A DNA stretch of 57,044 nt. It comes from Planctomycetota bacterium (GTDB taxonomy: Bacteria > Planctomycetota > Phycisphaerae > Phycisphaerales > SM1A02). Below the pieces are notes generated by a model. That model was not told the origin of the DNA. It made no database searches and was given only the letters and a program-made list of their open reading frames with translations. This document shows positions 10,520 to 56,318 of the stretch, piece after piece. Position 1 is the stretch's first letter. Each line of letters opens with the position of its first letter. The stretch covers positions 1 to 57,044 of the forward strand of contig JACNLW010000075.1 of assembly GCA_014381305.1 (NCBI GenBank), read 5' to 3'. Made by a program: the position numbers and the translations under genes.

Positions 10520-11212
10520 ATGCAACACGCAATCGTACTAGGCACGTCAATGATCATCACCATGTTTTCCTTAGGTTTTGTTGCGCCAGAGCAAGGGTGT
10601 TCGGAACTTACCTGTTTCGCTCCACTCTGTTTGATGCAGCCAATGCCACACGAAATGGATGGACGAAGACCTCGGCCAGATCGTCAGGGCATGGATCCAA
10701 AGATGCGTGGTCCTCGGGGTGACAGAGAAATGATGGACGAAATGCCGCAACGGATGATCGAACGTGTTATGGAAGTTGCGAAGGAAATAGACCCTGAACT
10801 TGCTGAACAACTTGAAACGATGTGCCACGATGATCCAGAGGCATTCAGAAAAATAATTCGCCGTCAAGGTCGCAGGCTTGCCTCACTTGTCCATATCCGT
10901 GAATCGGATCCAGATCTTTTTGAAGTGAAGTTAAACGAGTTGAAACTTGATGCTGAAATTTTTCAAGTGACAAAATCAATTCGCGCTCTTGGTGTTGACG
11001 AAGAAGTTTCACAAGCTCAAATAGCAACGCTACGTGGTTTGGTTCGCGCAAAAACTGCACTGAACATCCGCGTGCAAACATTAAGCGTGAATCGACTTGA
11101 ACGACACTTGGAAGCGCTTAAAGAACAGCTTGCTGACACAAGCGAACGCTTTGATGAAGTTGTGGAACAATGTGTCGCAGAAATTCTTGCTGGCGAGAAC
11201 ACAAAACAATAA
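10520..11212 (+). CDS. Exported helical protein of the ECF sigma operon, function unknown
   Basis: A 230-residue protein with an N-terminal signal-like hydrophobic stretch (residues 1-25), then a Met/Pro/Arg/Asp-rich segment (about 35-75: PMPHEMDGRRPRPDRQGMDP) and a long charged helical part to the end. It recalls small periplasmic Spy/CpxP-type or metal-binding stress proteins in composition only; I cannot show homology. A Shine-Dalgarno-like AAGGGA lies nine bases before ATG 10520. As the third gene after the sigma factor it may be a regulon product or sensor. Its stop TAA (11210-11212) is the first part of an intergenic palindrome. Confidence 0.6.
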   Translation: MQHAIVLGTSMIITMFSLGFVAPEQGCSELTCFAPLCLMQPMPHEMDGRRPRPDRQGMDPKMRGPRGDREMMDEMPQRMIERVMEVAKEIDPELAEQLETMCHDDPEAFRKIIRRQGRRLASLVHIRESDPDLFEVKLNELKLDAEIFQVTKSIRALGVDEEVSQAQIATLRGLVRAKTALNIRVQTLSVNRLERHLEALKEQLADTSERFDEVVEQCVAEILAGENTKQ

Positions 11213-11260
11213 ACTCACCGGGGGTGAGATAATCTAAGAAACTCACCGGGGGTGAGTTTC
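11211..11260. repeat. Two copies of the ACTCACC-GGTGAG palindrome family
   Basis: Copy one has arms CTCACC (11214-11219) and GGTGAG (11223-11228) with a GGG loop. Copy two (11238-11260) is a perfect ten-pair hairpin, GAAACTCACC and GGTGAGTTTC around GGG. The first copy begins AATAAACTCACC and its TAA is the stop codon of the preceding gene. They may act as a terminator between the sigma operon and the transporter genes. Related copies lie near 30.0 and 31.95 kb. Confidence 0.85.
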
Positions 11261-28024: not shown

Positions 28025-29224
28025 ATGCACCAACTGATGAGTGCAACAGAAATCATTTCATGGATTTTGGGCGTTTTGGTGACAGGGTCATTGCTTTTTT
28101 GGATTGGACTCGCGTATCGACTGAATTCGATGATTCGTACAAAACCAACCATTCGAGAGGGGCTAGATTTACCAGCACCCACCGATGCATCGGTGAGTAT
28201 CGTGATTCCTGCACACAACGAAGAGCGGGTGATTGATAGATGTGCAACTTCTCTGCGGCGTCAGTCACATAAAAACGTGCAAATCATATTTGTTCTTGAC
28301 CGTTGCAGCGATCGCACACTCGAAATTCTTCAGAAACACACCAAGGAAGATACACGTGTTTCTATTATCGAAAACTACTCCTGCCCAGAGGGCTGGGCGG
28401 GAAAATGTAACGCTGCAAGGCTTGGTGCAGAAAAAGCGACTGGGGATTGGTTGTTATTCACAGACGCCGACACGAAATTTGACAAGGAACTTGTCCGTTG
28501 TGCAGTGGCGTCTGCCATCAAGCGAAAAGCTTCATTGCTCAGTATTTTGAGCACGCTGACGATTACAAAAACCTTTGAGCGAATTGTTCAGCCAATTGCA
28601 AGTACTTTTTTAGTACGGCAATTCCCAGTAGACAGAGTAAACCGAGAGCATCGTTCTCGCCCATTTGCAAATGGCCAGTTTCTCTTGTTTTCGAGAAAAG
28701 CGTACGAAGGAATTGGCGGACATGAAGCAGTAAAAGAAGCACTTCTTGAAGATATTGCTTTTGCCAGAACGATTGCACGCGAACCGGATGGTCGTGTACA
28801 ACTTCTGTTTGCAGATGGTTTGTTGAAATGTTCCATGTACCCAACCTTCGATTCATTCAAAACAGGTTGGAAACGGATCTACATTGAATCGCACAGCCGA
28901 GACGTGAAAAAACTTCGCGGTTCTGCATGGACTGCGCTTGTGGTGGGTGTGTGTATGCCATTGATTGCATTTGTTGGAATATATTTCGGAACCTCTGGAT
29001 CGCCTTCTTTGTTTTGGACTTCAATTGCAGCAGTAACGATGTTTATTTTCGTGAATGCATGGCTGTATAAGATAAACGGGGCGCCAGTTATTTTTGTAGT
29101 GCTTTCGCCGATTGGAGCAATGGTTGTTGCTTGGATTCTTTTTGGCGCGGCATCAATGTTACGAAACAGAAAACCAATTTGCTGGGGTGGCAAGGAATAC
29201 ATATTGGAGCCAAGAGCGGAATGA
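28025..29224 (+). CDS. Membrane glycosyltransferase, family 2
   Basis: A 399-residue enzyme with an N-terminal membrane helix (about 10-32), a GT-A catalytic domain and C-terminal helices (about 300-330 and 335-385). The nucleotide-sugar binding start VSIVIPAHNEERVIDRCATS and the DxD-type metal motif LLFTDADTKFD are present, followed by a conserved ED-type region (EALLEDIAFARTIA). It resembles the HpnB/carotenoid-type GT2 group in topology. The substrate is unknown. ATG 28025 or 28037. Its stop overlaps the surE start (ATGA). Confidence 0.8.
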   Translation: MHQLMSATEIISWILGVLVTGSLLFWIGLAYRLNSMIRTKPTIREGLDLPAPTDASVSIVIPAHNEERVIDRCATSLRRQSHKNVQIIFVLDRCSDRTLEILQKHTKEDTRVSIIENYSCPEGWAGKCNAARLGAEKATGDWLLFTDADTKFDKELVRCAVASAIKRKASLLSILSTLTITKTFERIVQPIASTFLVRQFPVDRVNREHRSRPFANGQFLLFSRKAYEGIGGHEAVKEALLEDIAFARTIAREPDGRVQLLFADGLLKCSMYPTFDSFKTGWKRIYIESHSRDVKKLRGSAWTALVVGVCMPLIAFVGIYFGTSGSPSLFWTSIAAVTMFIFVNAWLYKINGAPVIFVVLSPIGAMVVAWILFGAASMLRNRKPICWGGKEYILEPRAE

Positions 29225-30006
29225 GAATTTTACTCACGAATGATGATGGTATACGCGCACCGGGTATTATCGCGTTACATAAAGCACTTGCGGGCTTAGG
29301 CGAACTTATTGTAATCGCACCAGAAACCGTGCAGTCTGCGACAAGTCATGGCATTACATATACCAAGCCACTCATGACCCAACATGTAGATGTCACAGAG
29401 CAGATGTCTGGAACAGCAATTGATGGTCGACCTGCAGATTGCGTCAAACTCGCACTGCGTACGTTATGGGAAGAGCGTTTTGGAAAAGGCGAACTACCAG
29501 ACTTAACGATCAGTGGCATGAACAGTGGTTCCAATGTAGGAATCAATATTATTTATTCTGGCACAGTTGCTGCGGCAATTGAATCAGCATTTCTCGGTGT
29601 TCCTTCGATCGCTGTGAGTTTACATTTAGATAACCGCGATTCAATTTGTTATGACAGAGCAGCTGAAATTGCAAGAAACGTGATAGACAAAGTTTTAGAG
29701 AACAAACTTGAACCGCACGAGGTTGTGAATATCAATGTTCCAACATGTGAAACTCCAGATATGCCAATGCCCGAAATCAAAGTGGTTGAAATGAATGCCG
29801 CTGGCGACCTTGGTCATTACGACAAGCGAGAATGCCCGTATGGACGCACGTATTATTGGGCTGCGGGTGACGGCATGGCATTTGCGCATACCGCGCAGGG
29901 CAGTGATGTCGAAGCGCTCAAGGCAGGATTCGCGACAGTCACACCACTTGATTATGTGCTAACGGATACGCGCCGAATGTCACTTTGGAATGTTCGTTTG
30001 CAATAA
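29221..30006 (+). CDS. surE: 5'-nucleotidase SurE
   Basis: Metal-dependent phosphatase of 261 residues acting on nucleoside 5'-monophosphates and related phosphates. The signature MRILLTNDDGIRAPG opens the protein (metal ligands Asp8 and Asp9), with SATSHGITYTKPL and SGMNSGSNVG completing the site. ATG 29221 overlaps the glycosyltransferase stop and gives the canonical start; the frame upstream is inside that gene. Its stop TAA (30004-30006) lies in the left terminal repeat of the 30.0-30.25 kb element. Confidence 0.95.
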   Translation: MRILLTNDDGIRAPGIIALHKALAGLGELIVIAPETVQSATSHGITYTKPLMTQHVDVTEQMSGTAIDGRPADCVKLALRTLWEERFGKGELPDLTISGMNSGSNVGINIIYSGTVAAAIESAFLGVPSIAVSLHLDNRDSICYDRAAEIARNVIDKVLENKLEPHEVVNINVPTCETPDMPMPEIKVVEMNAAGDLGHYDKRECPYGRTYYWAAGDGMAFAHTAQGSDVEALKAGFATVTPLDYVLTDTRRMSLWNVRLQ

Positions 30007-30250
30007 ACTCACCCCCGGAAATAAACTCACCCCCGGTGAGTTTATTTGCAAGAACTGACCTAGGGTCAAAAAAATTTAGATATGGTAGAAACCCGAAGGA
30101 GTTGACCCCGGGTGAAATAATCGTTGATACCGCAAAGCGAGGTGATCCGTAGCAAATGGACACGATTAATTCACCCGCGGTCTAGATTAATTCACCCGCG
30201 GTCTAAATTGTTTCACCGGGGGTGAGTTTATTTCCGGGGGTGAGTTTATT
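30002..30250. mobile_element. 249-bp palindromic element with 38-bp perfect terminal inverted repeats (MITE-like)
   Basis: The left end (30002-30039) reads AATAAACTCACCCCCGG, then A plus the same 17 bases, then TGA; the right end (30213-30250) is its exact reverse complement over 38 bp. Inside the left end 30019-30047 is a 13-pair hairpin with a CCC loop. The centre holds a TGACC-TAG-GGTCA palindrome, an inverted pair (30104-30122 against 30164-30182, two mismatches) and two adjacent identical 21-bp units (30164-30184, 30185-30205). It has no coding capacity. It lies exactly between convergent surE and the TonB-like gene and supplies both TAA stops. No direct flanking duplication is visible. 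Confidence 0.75.
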
Positions 30251-31112
30251 TTGAAAGTGAAATATGAATGGTGATGTGAATCGATTCGTTTTCAAGGACA
30301 GCATCTATTTTTTCACCAGCAGCGCGCCAACGATACAAACTCGCAACAAGTGATCGGTCGATTGAAGAGGAGCCAGTTGAGCGAATTATCTCAACGTCGA
30401 TTGGTCTGCCGCGATTGTCAATCACCAAAACAGCGGTGAGACCATTGGGTGCATTTGTAACAGATTGGTGTGCAGTAAACGACGGTCTTCTTGGTCTGAG
30501 AATGATTCCTTCTGCAGCAATTGGGCGTCCTGTCTTCCAGTTTTCTCTTGGCACTTCTACGATCGAAGTAGGGTCGGATTCAAGATCAGAAAATTCAGAA
30601 ACTGGTTTTGGATTTGCTTCTACAACTTGTTCACGCGAATGTGAGGGCTGCACTGTGGGCGGTGGTGTTGGTGAAGCAAATGAAAATTGAAGCCCTCGTA
30701 GTGCGTCAATGAGTTTTGTTGCCGCATCGGTGACAGGCGCGATTGTCTCACTGAGATCATCAAGTATTTTTTTTATGTTTTTTTGGGGTTGTTCAAGTAC
30801 TACTTCTTGTGCCGCAGGTTTTGGGGAAGGCTGTTCTAGTTGCATAGCAGCTTGCTCAACATCGGCTAATCTTGCGAGGTGTTTTTGGTATTGTTCGTAC
30901 CCTATCCATGTCAAAGTCGATGCTTCAGATTGATCAATTCCAAGAACGATTTCTGGTTTTTCAAGTGGTGGTGTTTCAAGATGCGAAGCATCGGTTGGAG
31001 GTGCGAATGGAGATACAAACTGTTTGTTTGTAAAAAGTGGTATCACCGTAAAGTGAATTGCCAGTGATGCAACAAAAGCAATACACAGCGGCGTTGCTTC
31101 ACGGTGCAGCAT
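30246..31112 (-). CDS. TonB-like protein with proline-rich linker
   Basis: A 288-residue protein with an N-terminal signal-anchor helix (about 10-26, LCIAFVASLAIHFTVI), a Pro/Glu-rich periplasmic stretch, a middle helical part, and a C-terminal domain of TonB/TolA type (TAVLVIDNRGRPIDVEIIRSTG, then RSLVASLYRWRAAG). It probably couples inner-membrane energy to an outer-membrane partner. ATG 31112 has GTGAGG upstream; GTG 31127 is in frame. It overlaps the end of the ExbD gene. The stop lies in the right end of the palindromic element. Confidence 0.7.
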   Translation of the reverse strand: MLHREATPLCIAFVASLAIHFTVIPLFTNKQFVSPFAPPTDASHLETPPLEKPEIVLGIDQSEASTLTWIGYEQYQKHLARLADVEQAAMQLEQPSPKPAAQEVVLEQPQKNIKKILDDLSETIAPVTDAATKLIDALRGLQFSFASPTPPPTVQPSHSREQVVEANPKPVSEFSDLESDPTSIVEVPRENWKTGRPIAAEGIILRPRRPSFTAHQSVTNAPNGLTAVLVIDNRGRPIDVEIIRSTGSSSIDRSLVASLYRWRAAGEKIDAVLENESIHITIHISLSK

Positions 31113-31536
31113 GAGAGTTTTCCTCACTTGGAGCGCCTACCAAGAATACCTCCAAACTTTCTGCCCGCAAACGATCCCATGCACCAGTAAGCAGCGGACC
31201 CCGATCAACAACAGAGTGCCCATCTTCCATGACCAAGTAGAGGACGCTTTCGGGTTTTTCAGCGAGTTTTATCCGCACATTTTTTACCAAATCATCAAGT
31301 GTGACGACAGTTGTTCCAACATAGACATTGCCATCAACAGCAATCGTAATTGAAACTGCTGGCTTTGGCGTCGCCGTTTCGCCTGACATATATGTTTCGA
31401 ACGGAACGGGCAAAACTTCGGCCCGAACCATGAGAACCATTGCATAAATGAAAAATGTAAGCAACAAAAACACAACGTCGATCAACGGCATGATCTCAAC
31501 CCGTGTGTCATGTTCAGTGCGCCGCAATGGCCGCAT
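31099..31536 (-). CDS. ExbD/TolR-family proton-channel subunit
   Basis: A 145-residue protein with a short cytoplasmic start, one membrane helix (about 14-38, IMPLIDVVFLLLTFFIYAMVL) containing the essential Asp20 of the LIDVVFLLL motif, and a periplasmic domain. ExbD works with a pentameric ExbB to use the proton gradient. No ExbB/TolQ gene is adjacent: upstream is a STAS gene and downstream a TonB-like gene, so the stator must come from elsewhere. Probably co-transcribed with both neighbours (4-bp gap before it, 14-bp overlap after). Confidence 0.88.
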   Translation of the reverse strand: MRPLRRTEHDTRVEIMPLIDVVFLLLTFFIYAMVLMVRAEVLPVPFETYMSGETATPKPAVSITIAVDGNVYVGTTVVTLDDLVKNVRIKLAEKPESVLYLVMEDGHSVVDRGPLLTGAWDRLRAESLEVFLVGAPSEENSHAAP

Positions 31537-31540
31537 GCGA

Positions 31541-31882
31541 TTACTCTCCGACCATCAGACTCGTAAGAGCCGTGGTAGTGTCTTCAATAAATGTAAAGAC
31601 TTGATCCAAACCAGTTGCAAGCATCGTAGACCAAATGCCATCGTTGATATTGCAAATAATCATTCGGCGATCCTTTAAAGCGAGCATTTTTTTACATTCA
31701 ATCAACGCGCCTAGATTAGATGAGTTCAGTGTTGTTACTTGCTGCAAATCAATAATGACGTCGGGTGCAAGAATGTCGCTGTTTTTAAGTTTTGTAAGCA
31801 ACGCATCCGTGTCTTCGGAAAAGTCTGGCTCATTTTGAAGTTCAAGAATGAGTACGTCTTCGGACCATTGATTCAGTGTCAT
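31541..31882 (-). CDS. STAS-domain protein (anti-sigma-antagonist-like)
   Basis: A 113-residue single STAS domain. The conserved strand-helix DVIIDLQQVTTLNSSNLGALIECKK includes Ser54-Ser55, where SpoIIAA-type proteins are phosphorylated. Such proteins bind partner-switching kinases and release sigma factors or modulate transporters. No kinase or phosphatase lies nearby. It is the first gene of the STAS-ExbD-TonB-like operon and begins 119 bp after the gyrA stop, behind the palindrome cluster. Confidence 0.85.
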   Translation of the reverse strand: MTLNQWSEDVLILELQNEPDFSEDTDALLTKLKNSDILAPDVIIDLQQVTTLNSSNLGALIECKKMLALKDRRMIICNINDGIWSTMLATGLDQVFTFIEDTTTALTSLMVGE

Positions 31883-31896
31883 GGTATAGAGGATAC

Positions 31897-32006
31897 CCGA
31901 AATAAACGCACTCTCGGTGCGTTTATTGGATTTTTGATTCGTTGTTTAAAAAACTCACCGGGGGTGAGTTTTTCTGGGGGCGATTTTATTCGGGGGTGAT
32001 TTTATT
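31897..32006. repeat. Palindrome cluster downstream of gyrA
   Basis: Two strong hairpins: AATAAACGCAC/GTGCGTTTATT around TCTCG (31901-31927), and AAAAACTCACC/GGTGAGTTTTT around GGG (31949-31973). They are followed by two degenerate half-units, GGGGGCGATTTTATT and CGGGGGTGATTTTATT (about 31976-32005). The second hairpin has a T-run on the minus strand and should terminate gyrA. The TTA at 32002-32004, the gyrA stop, belongs to the last half-unit. Same family as the 30.0 kb element. Confidence 0.8.
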
Positions 32007-34623
32007 CTGTTGAAGCGTCAAGTTCGGCAGGCTCGTCGGAGCCTTCGATTTTAGCGGCTGCAATGAGGCGATCGTCATCTTTCAGATTCACTACTTTTAC
32101 ACCCTTGGTATTTCTGCCAATGGAGCGAATATCGCTTGCAGCGATCCTAACGAGCATCCCATTTGCAGTGATGAACATCAGGCTGTCACCATCTCGAACG
32201 GCGCGAATATCTGCAACGAGACCGTTTCGGTCACCAGTTTTGATATCACGCCGGCCTTTGCCGCCTCTGCCTTGTGGTCGAGTTGTACCGTCTTCACTAC
32301 TTCGCACAAGATATTCTTCCATCGGTGTGCGCTTGCCATACCCATTTTCAGTCATGGTCATGAGATCGGCATCATCCATCGCAAGGACAGCACCAACAAC
32401 GAGATCATCTTTTGCTAGCGTGATTCCCTTTACGCCAGCAGCAGTACGCCCCATCAGACGTGCGTCATTTTCATCAAAGCGAATCGACATGCCTTGTTTT
32501 GTTGCAAGAAGAATGTGTCCCGTGCCATCAGTTTTAATGACATCGATTAAAGCATCGCCATCATTGAGTTTAATTGCGCGGATGCCGCCTTTGTTTACGT
32601 TGTGGTAGTCAGCGACAGCAGTTCGTTTCACCTTTCCATTTGCGGTTGCAAACACGAGGTTTTCTTGATTGTTTTCAAAATCTTTTATGGCTCGGACAGT
32701 CACAACTTGCTCGTCATCTTTGAAGTTCAGTAAGTTGACTAATGCTCGACCCTTACTTGTACGGGTTGCTTCTGGAATTCGATACACTTTTAAGTTAAAC
32801 ACGCGCCCAGAATCAGTAAAGCACAACAGATCATCGTGCGTTGAGGCAACAAAGATGTGTTCAATAAAGTCACCGTCTCTTGTTTCTCCACCTTTGATGC
32901 CACGACCACCTCGACCCTGTTCTCTGAATGTGTCGATCGGGAGACGCTTGACATAGCCTTGATGTGAAATTGTTACACACACATCGTGTTCTGTGATTAA
33001 CGCTCCATGATCAAACTCTTCTTCTTCTGCTTCAATAAAGCCAGTAAGCCGCGGTGTTGCGAAGCGATCTTTCATTTCAAGGCAATCTTCGCGGATCATG
33101 TCAAAAACTTTTTGTTCGCTTGCAAGAATGCTTGCGTAATAATCAATTTTTTCCAGTAGTTCAGCATAATCGCTCGTGAGTTTTTCAATTTCAAGTCCAA
33201 CAAGTTGGATCAATCGCAACGCACCAATTGATTCTGCTTGCACGCGAGAAAGTGACACGCCATCTTTCGCTGTTTCAATGAGTCGGTTGGAAATAAACTT
33301 CGCATATTCATGCGATTCTGAAATCGTAAATGCTCGGGCGATCAATTTTTCGATCGCTTCGTCGCGCGTTCGACTGCCGCGAATCAGTGCGATTACTTCA
33401 TCGATGTCACATACTGCGTAAATCAAACCTTCAAGTTTGTGCGCGGCTTTGCGTGCTTCACGAAGCAAATGCTCAGTTCGCCTTCGGATTACTTCTTGGC
33501 GGTGGCCTACCCAGCAATCAATCAATGCACGAAGTGGAAGTGTTTGTGGCCGTCCACTAACAAGTGCGATGTTGATGACGGAAACCGTTGATTGGAGCGG
33601 CGTGTATTGATACAACTGCCGTTCAACGACAGAAGGATCAGCGCCTCGTTTTAGGTAGACAACAATTCGCGTCCGCCATTTTTTACCCGAGAAGTTTTTG
33701 ATATCTGAAATATCATTGATGCGACCAGTCTTTGCACATTCAACCATTTTCTCAATCAAGTTGTTTTGCACAATTTGATAAGGGATTTCATCAATGACAA
33801 TTGCTTGCCGTTTGCCAATTTCTTCGTGGTGGACACGGCCTCGTACCTTAAATCGACTTCGACCAGTTGCGTACGCGTCAAGAATGCCGCGCTTGCCAAC
33901 AACGAGTCCACCAGTCGGGAAATCAGGGCCTGGAACAATTTCAAGTAACTCTTGTAAAGAAAGATCAGGGTTATCGATGGTTGCGATGATCGCATCGCAA
34001 ATTTCACCAACATTATGTGGCGGCATGGAACACGCCATGCCAACTGCAATACCATTTGAACCATTGACAAGCAAGTTTGGAAATCTACCAGGCAGAACCG
34101 TTGGTTCTAATCGTGTTTCATCGTAATTTGGTTTGAAGTCAACAGTGCCGAGTTTGATGTCAGCGAGCATTTCAACTGCAGCGGCAGTCATGCGGGCTTC
34201 TGTGTATCGCATCGCAGCAGGGGGATCACCATCGATCGAACCGAAGTTACCCTGTTTGTCGACAAGCATCGTTCGCATTTTCCAACTTTGGCCCATGTTG
34301 ACCAACGTTGGATAGATTACTGATTCGCCGTGTGGGTGATAGTTACCCGAAGTATCGCCTGCGATCTTTGCACACTTCCGATGTTTTCTACCGGGTGAAA
34401 GATTGAGGTCGTTCATCGCAACCAAAATGCGACGTTGCGATGGCTTTAAACCATCGCGAACATCTGGCAGTGCACGATCCATAATTGTTGACATTGCGTA
34501 CGTGAGATAACTGTCGTGCAGTTCTCGTTCAATGAGTTGTTCAACAACGTGACCAAGGTTTGAAGGTTCTTTTTCAGAGCCTTCATCGCCAGTATTTTCG
34601 GGTTGTTTTGGTGTCTCACTCAT
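32002..34623 (-). CDS. gyrA: DNA gyrase subunit A
   Basis: Type II topoisomerase breakage-reunion subunit, 873 residues. The active-site region AAMRYTEARM puts the DNA-linking tyrosine at Tyr140; the N-terminal domain opens with SYLTYAMSTIMDRALPDVRDGLKPSQRR split over residues 38-64. Beta-pinwheel blades fill the C-terminal third, and the GyrA-box-like QGRGGKG is present, favouring gyrase over topoisomerase IV. The start at ATG 34623 (MSETPKQ) gives a 30-residue acidic leader before the conserved part. gyrB is not in the window. The acidic tail ends in EPAELDASTE. Confidence 0.95.
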   Translation of the reverse strand: MSETPKQPENTGDEGSEKEPSNLGHVVEQLIERELHDSYLTYAMSTIMDRALPDVRDGLKPSQRRILVAMNDLNLSPGRKHRKCAKIAGDTSGNYHPHGESVIYPTLVNMGQSWKMRTMLVDKQGNFGSIDGDPPAAMRYTEARMTAAAVEMLADIKLGTVDFKPNYDETRLEPTVLPGRFPNLLVNGSNGIAVGMACSMPPHNVGEICDAIIATIDNPDLSLQELLEIVPGPDFPTGGLVVGKRGILDAYATGRSRFKVRGRVHHEEIGKRQAIVIDEIPYQIVQNNLIEKMVECAKTGRINDISDIKNFSGKKWRTRIVVYLKRGADPSVVERQLYQYTPLQSTVSVINIALVSGRPQTLPLRALIDCWVGHRQEVIRRRTEHLLREARKAAHKLEGLIYAVCDIDEVIALIRGSRTRDEAIEKLIARAFTISESHEYAKFISNRLIETAKDGVSLSRVQAESIGALRLIQLVGLEIEKLTSDYAELLEKIDYYASILASEQKVFDMIREDCLEMKDRFATPRLTGFIEAEEEEFDHGALITEHDVCVTISHQGYVKRLPIDTFREQGRGGRGIKGGETRDGDFIEHIFVASTHDDLLCFTDSGRVFNLKVYRIPEATRTSKGRALVNLLNFKDDEQVVTVRAIKDFENNQENLVFATANGKVKRTAVADYHNVNKGGIRAIKLNDGDALIDVIKTDGTGHILLATKQGMSIRFDENDARLMGRTAAGVKGITLAKDDLVVGAVLAMDDADLMTMTENGYGKRTPMEEYLVRSSEDGTTRPQGRGGKGRRDIKTGDRNGLVADIRAVRDGDSLMFITANGMLVRIAASDIRSIGRNTKGVKVVNLKDDDRLIAAAKIEGSDEPAELDASTE

Positions 34624-49530: not shown

Positions 49531-49952
49531 TTCGTATTTTTGTGCCCGTCGCAATAGTGTTAGCTGGATGTAGTACGCCAATACAACGGACGTACCCACA
49601 CGTTGATCAATCGCATCTTTGGACAGCGATGGTAGCGACAGCAGATTCTCCAGAATATGGATCAGAGGATCTCTCAAAGCGCTGGATCGTGCTTGAAAAC
49701 GAAGTAGAAATTAATCCTAGTCGTGGTCAAATTGACGTGAAACGAATCATCTATCGTTCGTATCAACTTCCACGGCAAAAACCAGAACGTGATTCACGCG
49801 ATGTCCTGTTTTCAGTGTATCTTTTGCCAACGAATCCATTAACTCTCGAATTCATAAATCACAACGCAACGTTTTTCCCTGTCCGTGGAAAGGCCGAAGC
49901 ACAACGATTTTTCGATGGCGTTGATCAAATGCTCGTACCGATCATTGACTAA
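49527..49952 (+). CDS. Predicted lipoprotein, function unknown
   Basis: A 141-residue protein starting MIRIFVPVAIVLAGCSTP; LAGC is a good lipobox and Cys15 would be lipidated. The remainder is a small alpha/beta domain with no known motif. It is the last gene of the nusA operon, translationally coupled to yebC by ATGA overlap. Its stop TAA (49950-49952) touches the terminator hairpin. Confidence 0.65.
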   Translation: MIRIFVPVAIVLAGCSTPIQRTYPHVDQSHLWTAMVATADSPEYGSEDLSKRWIVLENEVEINPSRGQIDVKRIIYRSYQLPRQKPERDSRDVLFSVYLLPTNPLTLEFINHNATFFPVRGKAEAQRFFDGVDQMLVPIID

Positions 49953-49984
49953 AAAATAAACTACCCGTGGGTAGTTTATTTTTT
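49951..49984. terminator. Bidirectional terminator, relative of the palindrome family
   Basis: Sixteen perfect pairs around GT: AAAAAATAAACTACCC against GGGTAGTTTATTTTTT. The core AATAAACT-ACCC resembles the unit AATAAACTCACC seen elsewhere. T-runs exist on both strands, fitting termination of the nusA operon and of the convergent recombinase gene. Confidence 0.8.
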
Positions 49985-50015
49985 ACTTTAATAAGAGAGT
50001 ATCTTCGGGAGGATT

Positions 50016-56261: not shown

Positions 56262-56280
56262 TTATTTTTGTATTCATCCA

Positions 56281-56318
56281 AAAAAAGCGGCGTTCCAATT
56301 TGGAACGCCGCTTTTTTT
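56281..56318. terminator. Strong bidirectional intrinsic terminator
   Basis: GCGGCGTTCC and GGAACGCCGC around AATTT, flanked by A6 on the left and T7 on the right. It sits between the convergent small gene and rplS, and would stop transcription from both sides. Confidence 0.92.

Follow-up and report, generated by a model that had tools for sequence, protein, structure and literature searches.

The closest described counterparts of the repeats considered here are short palindromic families linked to Y1 transposases. REPs, BIMEs, and REPINs, associated with RAYT transposases (PMC2817692, Nunvar et al. 2010; PMC3116915, Bertels and Rainey 2011; PMC8266576), are extragenic palindromes and mosaics, with regularly spaced doublets of inverted copies, a separate repeat type for each transposase, and, in most REPs, a GT[AG]G head. 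Related literature on REP, RAYT, and TnpAY1 includes REP ends that give stop codons (PMC8266576, PMC8049555, PMC3116915, PMC2817692), and different repeats beside related RAYT genes have already been reported (PMC2817692; PMC6006769). TIRYT genes with GGGGWSAS inverted repeats, together with TIR families, have been described (PMC3733652, Di Nocera et al. 2013), and they largely correspond to the TnpAY1 subclass 2.1 of Quentin et al. 2018 (PMC6006769).

The window analyzed here is a stretch of 57,044 nucleotides from a genome, denoted G000, of 1,878,999 bases (114 contigs; completeness of 95.16%); the 12 other genomes of the same genus are referred to as sisters, and extracted loci and contigs carry the prefixes L and C. 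By SurE, its best named relatives are Phycisphaerales/Phycisphaerae MAGs (93% and 89%, the window's own record possibly being excluded), and the isolate names of relatives suggest that the host is marine. The segment at 30002–30250 is probably a BIME-like mosaic of two short palindromic families, A and B, of the type associated with Y1 HUH transposases (RAYT/TnpAREP; TIRYT) and spread by a putative cognate transposase.

Composition of the Mosaic

The preliminary description of this segment had presented it as one 249-bp element with 38-bp perfect terminal inverted repeats, each made of two tandem half-units plus TGA. The repeats themselves are as described: 30002–30039 and 30213–30250 are 100% complementary over 38 nt, with a spacer of 173 nt, and both ends read AATAAACTCACCCCCGG, a single A nucleotide, AATAAACTCACCCCCGG again, and TGA. 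The interior likewise has no ORF of at least 80 aa (the threshold of the ORF list) and contains additional palindromes, and the folding of the segment lies far beyond that of shuffled sequences, with a predicted RNA folding energy of −124.8 kcal/mol compared with −64.3 kcal/mol for 200 shuffles (S.D. 4.33; z of −13.97), none of which equals it, and a z of −14.53 relative to shuffles when the 249 bp are folded as DNA. The stop codons of the surE-like gene and of the convergent TonB-like gene both lie within the outermost half-units (Table 1).

The single element did not survive, since the arms are stacked A half-units on either side of a separate B element. When the 249 bp were compared with G000, the next best match covered query positions 20–183 at 96% and another covered 102–232 at 92%; the search gave 149 matches in total, from the 40 of 113 first-look candidates that were scored, and a single 249-bp transposon is rejected because no other full-length copy is present among the matches listed. 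The suggestion of a REP/BIME-like unit fared better, as the parts are dispersed and palindromic, A is extragenic, and A flanks a Y1 gene in the sister G009.

Table 1. Positions of the repeats and flanking genes in the window
Feature	Position	Strand	Remarks
Surrounding genes
surE-like gene	29224–30006	+	Stop codon in left half-unit
TonB-like gene	30246–31127	−	Stop codon in right half-unit; name from sequence reading alone
Parts of the mosaic
A half-unit AATAAACTCACCCCCGG	30002–30018	+	Holds surE stop TAA 30004–30006
A palindrome, 13-bp arms, 3-nt center	30019–30047	.
Linker	30048–30103	+	Also within 96% match on contig C114 (query 20–183)
B element, 79 bp, ends GACCCCGGGTGAAATAATCG and CGATTAATTCACCCGCGGTC	30104–30182	+
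Additional B right end AGATTAATTCACCCGCGGTC	30184–30203	+
A half-unit, opposite orientation	30216–30232	−	38-bp arm starts at 30213
A half-unit, opposite orientation	30234–30250	−	Holds tonB-like stop TAA 30246–30248
Other A arrays
Second A array in window	11208–11260	.	End of upstream ORF; ORF stop is the motif TAA
Third A array in window	31949–32004	.	gyrA 3′ end; palindrome 31949–31973 and degenerate half-units to gyrA stop

The window also contains palindromes with AATAAAC/GTTTATT ends and other cores at 49950–49985 (one of them at 49955) and at 31901–31927, which are possible remnants of an older repeat family. A strong hairpin at 56280–56318, with 18-bp arms and runs of A and T, resembles an ordinary intrinsic terminator. 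No known RNA family matches the mosaic at gathering cut-offs, the sole match in the window being a tRNA.

The A and B Families in G000 and Its Relatives

The A half-unit, AATAAACTCACCCCCGG, is often extended to the palindrome AATAAACTCACC-NNN-GGTGAGTTTATT. With up to one mismatch, the 14-mer AAACTCACCCCCGG has 218 matches in G000 and its reversed control none; counts given here for A, B, and D add both strands, so that near-palindromes may score twice. In 400 genomes of the order, drawn from a larger group, the 17-mer AATAAACTCACCCCCGG with up to one mismatch was found 142 times in G000, 9 times in G009, once or twice in each of five others, and in none of the remaining 393; we estimate that, over a search space of this size, single matches in other genomes are about as frequent as expected by chance. 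A DNA search of 61 genomes found A in G000 and G009 only. Viral contigs gave no exact match to the perfect A palindrome with a free center, and plasmids gave no match to the 249 bp at E ≤ 1e-5.

B is a unit of 75–80 bp with imperfect 20-bp ends. Its right end, at up to two mismatches, has 107 matches in G000, a count that includes the left end, two bases of which are different, and from zero to one in each of the 12 sisters. A pattern requiring both ends at up to three mismatches returned 73 rows, most units appearing once per strand, with lengths of 75–80 bp in 67 and 97–100 bp in 6.

A, B, and linkers are joined in many combinations, in the manner of BIMEs. The window and 67 other stretches of G000 contain 184 half-units at up to one mismatch, 125 of which continue with TGAGTTT and so form the palindrome. 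The spacing is regular: 23 of 37 consecutive inverted (convergently pointing) A pairs are 53–54 bp apart, and among 72 direct pairs, 34 are spaced by 16–18 bp and 15 by 46–47 bp. On contig C23 of G000, L059 and L060 (at about 16.9 and 19.8 kb) are near-identical A-B arrays about 2.9 kb apart with the same preceding sequence, a local duplication.

Short noncoding units with inverted ends would also be expected of a classical MITE family mobilized by a DDE transposase through recognition of those ends, and B in particular, with its fixed ends and variable interior, has that appearance. There is, however, no fixed whole unit and, by eye, no target duplication at the arms, and the gene that A adjoins is a Y1 gene instead. 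This reading is very unlikely, although B may be such a family.

Placement Relative to Genes

Sixty-six A clusters contain one or more exact half-units, and, although the window is about 88% coding, not one of them falls within a predicted gene. Nineteen are at a contig edge or without a neighbor; the 47 that could be placed comprise 20 between convergent, 16 between co-directional, and 11 between divergent genes. The convergent fraction (20/47) compares with 35 of 177 gene pairs in a baseline made up of the window and 140 kb of the sister G005 (binomial p of 0.0003), all placement figures resting on a crude ORF map that missed surE itself. Within 60 bp of an A cluster there are 58 gene ends (surE added by hand), 24 of which take their stop codon from the TAA of the A motif. 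Overall, 41 of the 58 terminate in TAA, compared with 103 of 179 ORFs in the loci, a total that includes those 58.

This placement bears on a DNA uptake signal such as the DUS and USS of Neisseria and Pasteurellaceae, which are often paired as terminators. A resembles them as a short word in many copies, often inverted and paired at the ends of genes. Uptake signals, however, are found within genes as well, and usually at a density far above that of the 218 matches found here, and A is nearly absent in the sisters; the proposal is rejected on the extragenic placement of all 66 clusters, and we regard it as extremely unlikely.

The same figures could be accommodated if A were the standard intrinsic terminator of the lineage, its uniformity owed to gene conversion or selection and not to a transposase. 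It has a stem and T-rich ends and supplies the stop codons counted above, and G005, in which no PF01797 match was found, has 14 AATAAAC/GTTTATT palindromes, some of them at A sites. This reading is nevertheless quite unlikely: it does not account for the exact 38-bp arms, the constant spacing of the doublets, or the stacking of half-units; 11 of the 47 placed clusters lie between divergent genes, where no terminator is needed; and A flanks a Y1 gene in G009, while its core was not seen in other genomes of the genus. Furthermore, a terminator scan of 29800–32100 found 3 sites compared with 3.0 in shuffles, with no excess, and a terminating role for A is therefore proposed here conditionally.

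Comparison with the Sister Genomes

Measured between the last surE codons and the tonB-like stop, the surE|tonB segment spans 266 nt in G000 and 25–64 nt in all 12 sisters, so that the empty surE/TonB-like junctions that the preliminary description had proposed to look for are present in each of these 12 genomes; its alternative, a unit unique to this locus and with the same boundaries in all relatives, is not what is found. In most sisters this segment has no palindrome of the AATAAAC...GTTTATT format; in G005, the nearest by surE identity (84%, compared with 81% for G002 and 74% for G009), it reads AAATAAACTCACTTTAGTTACGTTTATTT, an imperfect palindrome with the same ends.

In a wider comparison limited to A sites, the corresponding place in the G005 stretches was located for 11 of the 69 A clusters queried, the stretches for L045, L098, and L103 having been picked with bias. 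The A core is present in G005 at none of the 11. Three sites (L076, L098, and window 31958) have a perfect or near-perfect 27-bp AATAAAC...GTTTATT palindrome with a different core, L084 has a near version of it, two (window 30005 and 11246) have imperfect palindromes, two (L045 and L077) have a C-type GACC...GGTC palindrome, and the remaining three (L085, L103, and L104) have nothing related. The intergenic gap is longer in G000 at 10 of the 11, the figure for L084 being unusable because the comparison spans two arrays; at L103 the gap is longer in G005 (165 compared with 68 in G000). The genes that flank A copies align to G005 at 75–92%.

Those aligned flanks, found in many contexts with the copies lying between genes, together with the recurrence of A in G009, leave an almost negligible probability for an assembly or binning artifact, despite the division of G000 into 114 contigs and the proximity of 17 A clusters to contig ends (within 120 bp).

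The forward pattern AATAAACN{8,20}GTTTATT has 50 matches in G000, 14 in G005, 10 in G002, 8 in G009, and 0–6 in each of the other nine genomes, with 0–1 in reversed controls. Among the matches listed, the cores of palindromes of this format vary between species (for example, CTACCTCGTAGGTAG in G005 and CAATCCCGCGGGTCG in G004 and G006), and G000 retains a few with other cores, such as that at window 49955. These observations raise the possibility of mobile terminators with core turnover, in which a Y1-linked hairpin carrying its own stop codon and stem overwrote older 27-bp AATAAAC-core-GTTTATT hairpins at the ends of genes, the sites persisting from species to species while the core was replaced genome-wide as the transposase changed. 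This is supported by contig C1 of G005, where all three listed palindromes of the format sit at A sites of G000, but weakened by the whole set of examined G005 stretches, in which only 4 of the 13 listed palindromes (14 in G005) could be matched to an A cluster; we regard it as unlikely, although conceivable.

Palindromes of this format but with other cores, as seen at several orthologous sites, would also be expected if an older, fixed gene-end palindrome had been converted to the A core by recombination, without transposition, the link to a Y1 gene in G009 then being a coincidence of site choice. That homogenization should explain the data appears decidedly unlikely, as the mosaic is absent at surE|tonB in every sister, mostly with no such palindrome there, A is present at the three sites where G005 has nothing related, and two related Y1 genes each have their own repeat.

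A is common to G000 and G009 even though the surE of G009 is less similar to that of G000 than are those of other sisters, a distribution that suggests that A and its gene were gained horizontally or, alternatively, lost several times.

Y1 Transposase Genes and Their Adjoining Repeats

PF01797 genes occur in 4 of the 13 genomes of the genus, with three each in G000 and G009 and two each in G007 and G008, and two groups are distinguished by BLAST. All six proteins tested exceed the PF01797 cut-off; all six also match the NCBIfam RAYT model NF047646, at 55–76 bits and so below its cut-off of 80. The NHxH and YLAMNP motifs are present in L115–L117. No domain other than PF01797, and hence no C-terminal HTH domain, was detected in the six proteins at E ≤ 0.001, and at the same threshold L117 has no relative of solved structure by sequence.

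The transposase with matching ends that the preliminary description had proposed to look for was found in G009 but not in G000. In L117 (contig C131 of G009), a Y1 gene has an A array on each side, that on the left being about 80 bp ahead of the predicted start, and the stop codon of the gene (L117 2185–2190) is the TAA of the right array. In G000, no A-flanked Y1 gene or fragment was found despite 142 A matches compared with 9 in G009, and a search for transposase remnants beside A clusters gave one match, with an E value of 0.29, which was not accepted. Since 17 A clusters are near contig ends, an assembly gap hiding the cognate gene is a fair possibility. For B, no cognate transposase gene was identified.

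The Y1 genes of G000 have other neighbors. L116 (contig C87), 52% identical to L117, has palindromes of a family D on both sides, where D is TTGACTCCGAGTCAA, which at up to one mismatch has 159 matches in G000 and 0–4 in the 12 sisters. L110 (contig C110) adjoins the stacked 13-bp units of a family C, which contain GGGGTCAG and are found at L110 1960–2090, L051 1–60, and L102 about 1380–1640. Upstream of the Y1 gene in L112 (contig C103) is a long tandem repeat with a unit of about 60 bp (CTTCAAGGCAATCTTCGAGG...). Thus, with A at L117, D at L116, C at L110, and the tandem repeat at L112, related Y1 genes adjoin different repeats. In the flanks of 30 family-wide homologues of L117, 20 are without any 10-mer repeated at least three times.

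A GRP word, often GRPRK-like, is present in the last 40 residues of 18 of 31 distinct proteins (L115–L117 and the homologues L223–L252). We take this C-terminal word to resemble an AT-hook, which might suit the AT-rich ends of the repeats.

Relationship to Described Systems

The likeness to TIRYT systems (PMC3733652, PMC6006769) consists of a Y1 gene with inverted repeats on both sides (L117 with A), repeats dispersed as single, paired, and grouped copies, a protein length of 238 aa, which is the subclass 2.1 median (PMC6006769), and the GGGGWSAS word, seen by eye in A (GGGGTGAG) and C (GGGGTCAG). The differences are that D is without this word, which B has in some copies only, that the Y motif is YLAMNP rather than the Y[IV]ELNP or Y[IV]HLNP listed there, that no C-terminal HTH domain is found here at the threshold given above, and that A is far more abundant than TIR families characterized as "moderately abundant."

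With REP/BIME and REPIN systems, A shares its extragenic palindromes and mosaics, its regularly spaced inverted doublets, the pairing of one repeat type with one transposase, and ends that provide stop codons (TAG in the case of GTAG REPs, TAA in that of A). In contrast, A does not have the head that marks most REPs (GT[AG]G was found within 6 nt of the A palindrome on 2 of 236 strands), it consists of stacked half-units of 17–18 nt with AT-rich AATAAAC/GTTTATT ends, and its cognate gene is not seen in the genome with most A copies. Class 3 TnpAY1, of Planctomycetes and others, has atypical high-copy repeats in Planctomycetes (PMC6006769), a point of resemblance; its Y motif, however, ends in Q, and membership of this class is rejected because that of L115–L117 ends in NP.

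The variant represented by A, with no GTAG head, stacked half-units, and AATAAAC ends, matched no named family in the searches made. A literature search, with most subscription papers outside its scope, found no paper uniting Phycisphaerales, palindromic repeats, and a transposase, and none uniting a REP-associated tyrosine transposase with an AT-hook.

Proposed Mechanism and Implications

The A and B repeats have probably been spread by a REP-type (RAYT) transposase, the indication of movement being their presence or absence between species. By analogy with TnpAREP and IS200/IS605, from which the steps of binding, cutting, joining, and termination are all inferred, a Y1 protein would bind the A hairpin in single-stranded form and cut beside it through its HUH/Y site, and A would be rejoined elsewhere, in trans, as single palindromes or doublets; repeated joining or slippage could then generate the stacked half-units and mosaics. 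The cognate enzyme of G000 may be encoded in an assembly gap or may have been present only in the past. B and the single, stacked, or inverted-doublet forms of A would accumulate between genes, above all at convergent 3′ ends, as selection leaves the intergenic copies and the ends of genes are safe sites for a repeat with its own TAA and stem. With an end that reads AATAAAC and a core that forms a hairpin, A would provide any gene end at which it lies with a TAA stop as well as a stem resembling a terminator, and this may be the reason why copies there are tolerated or kept.

If this interpretation is correct, REP/REPIN biology reaches a small-genome marine planctomycete lineage, in which the repeats have no GTAG guide of the kind described as important in recognition and related transposase genes would pair with different repeats, as in L117 with A and L116 with D. 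The near-complete difference in repeats among species of the genus would constitute a natural test of the co-evolution of transposase and repeat, and the same differences would test whether the repeats last as stop codon and terminator at gene ends.
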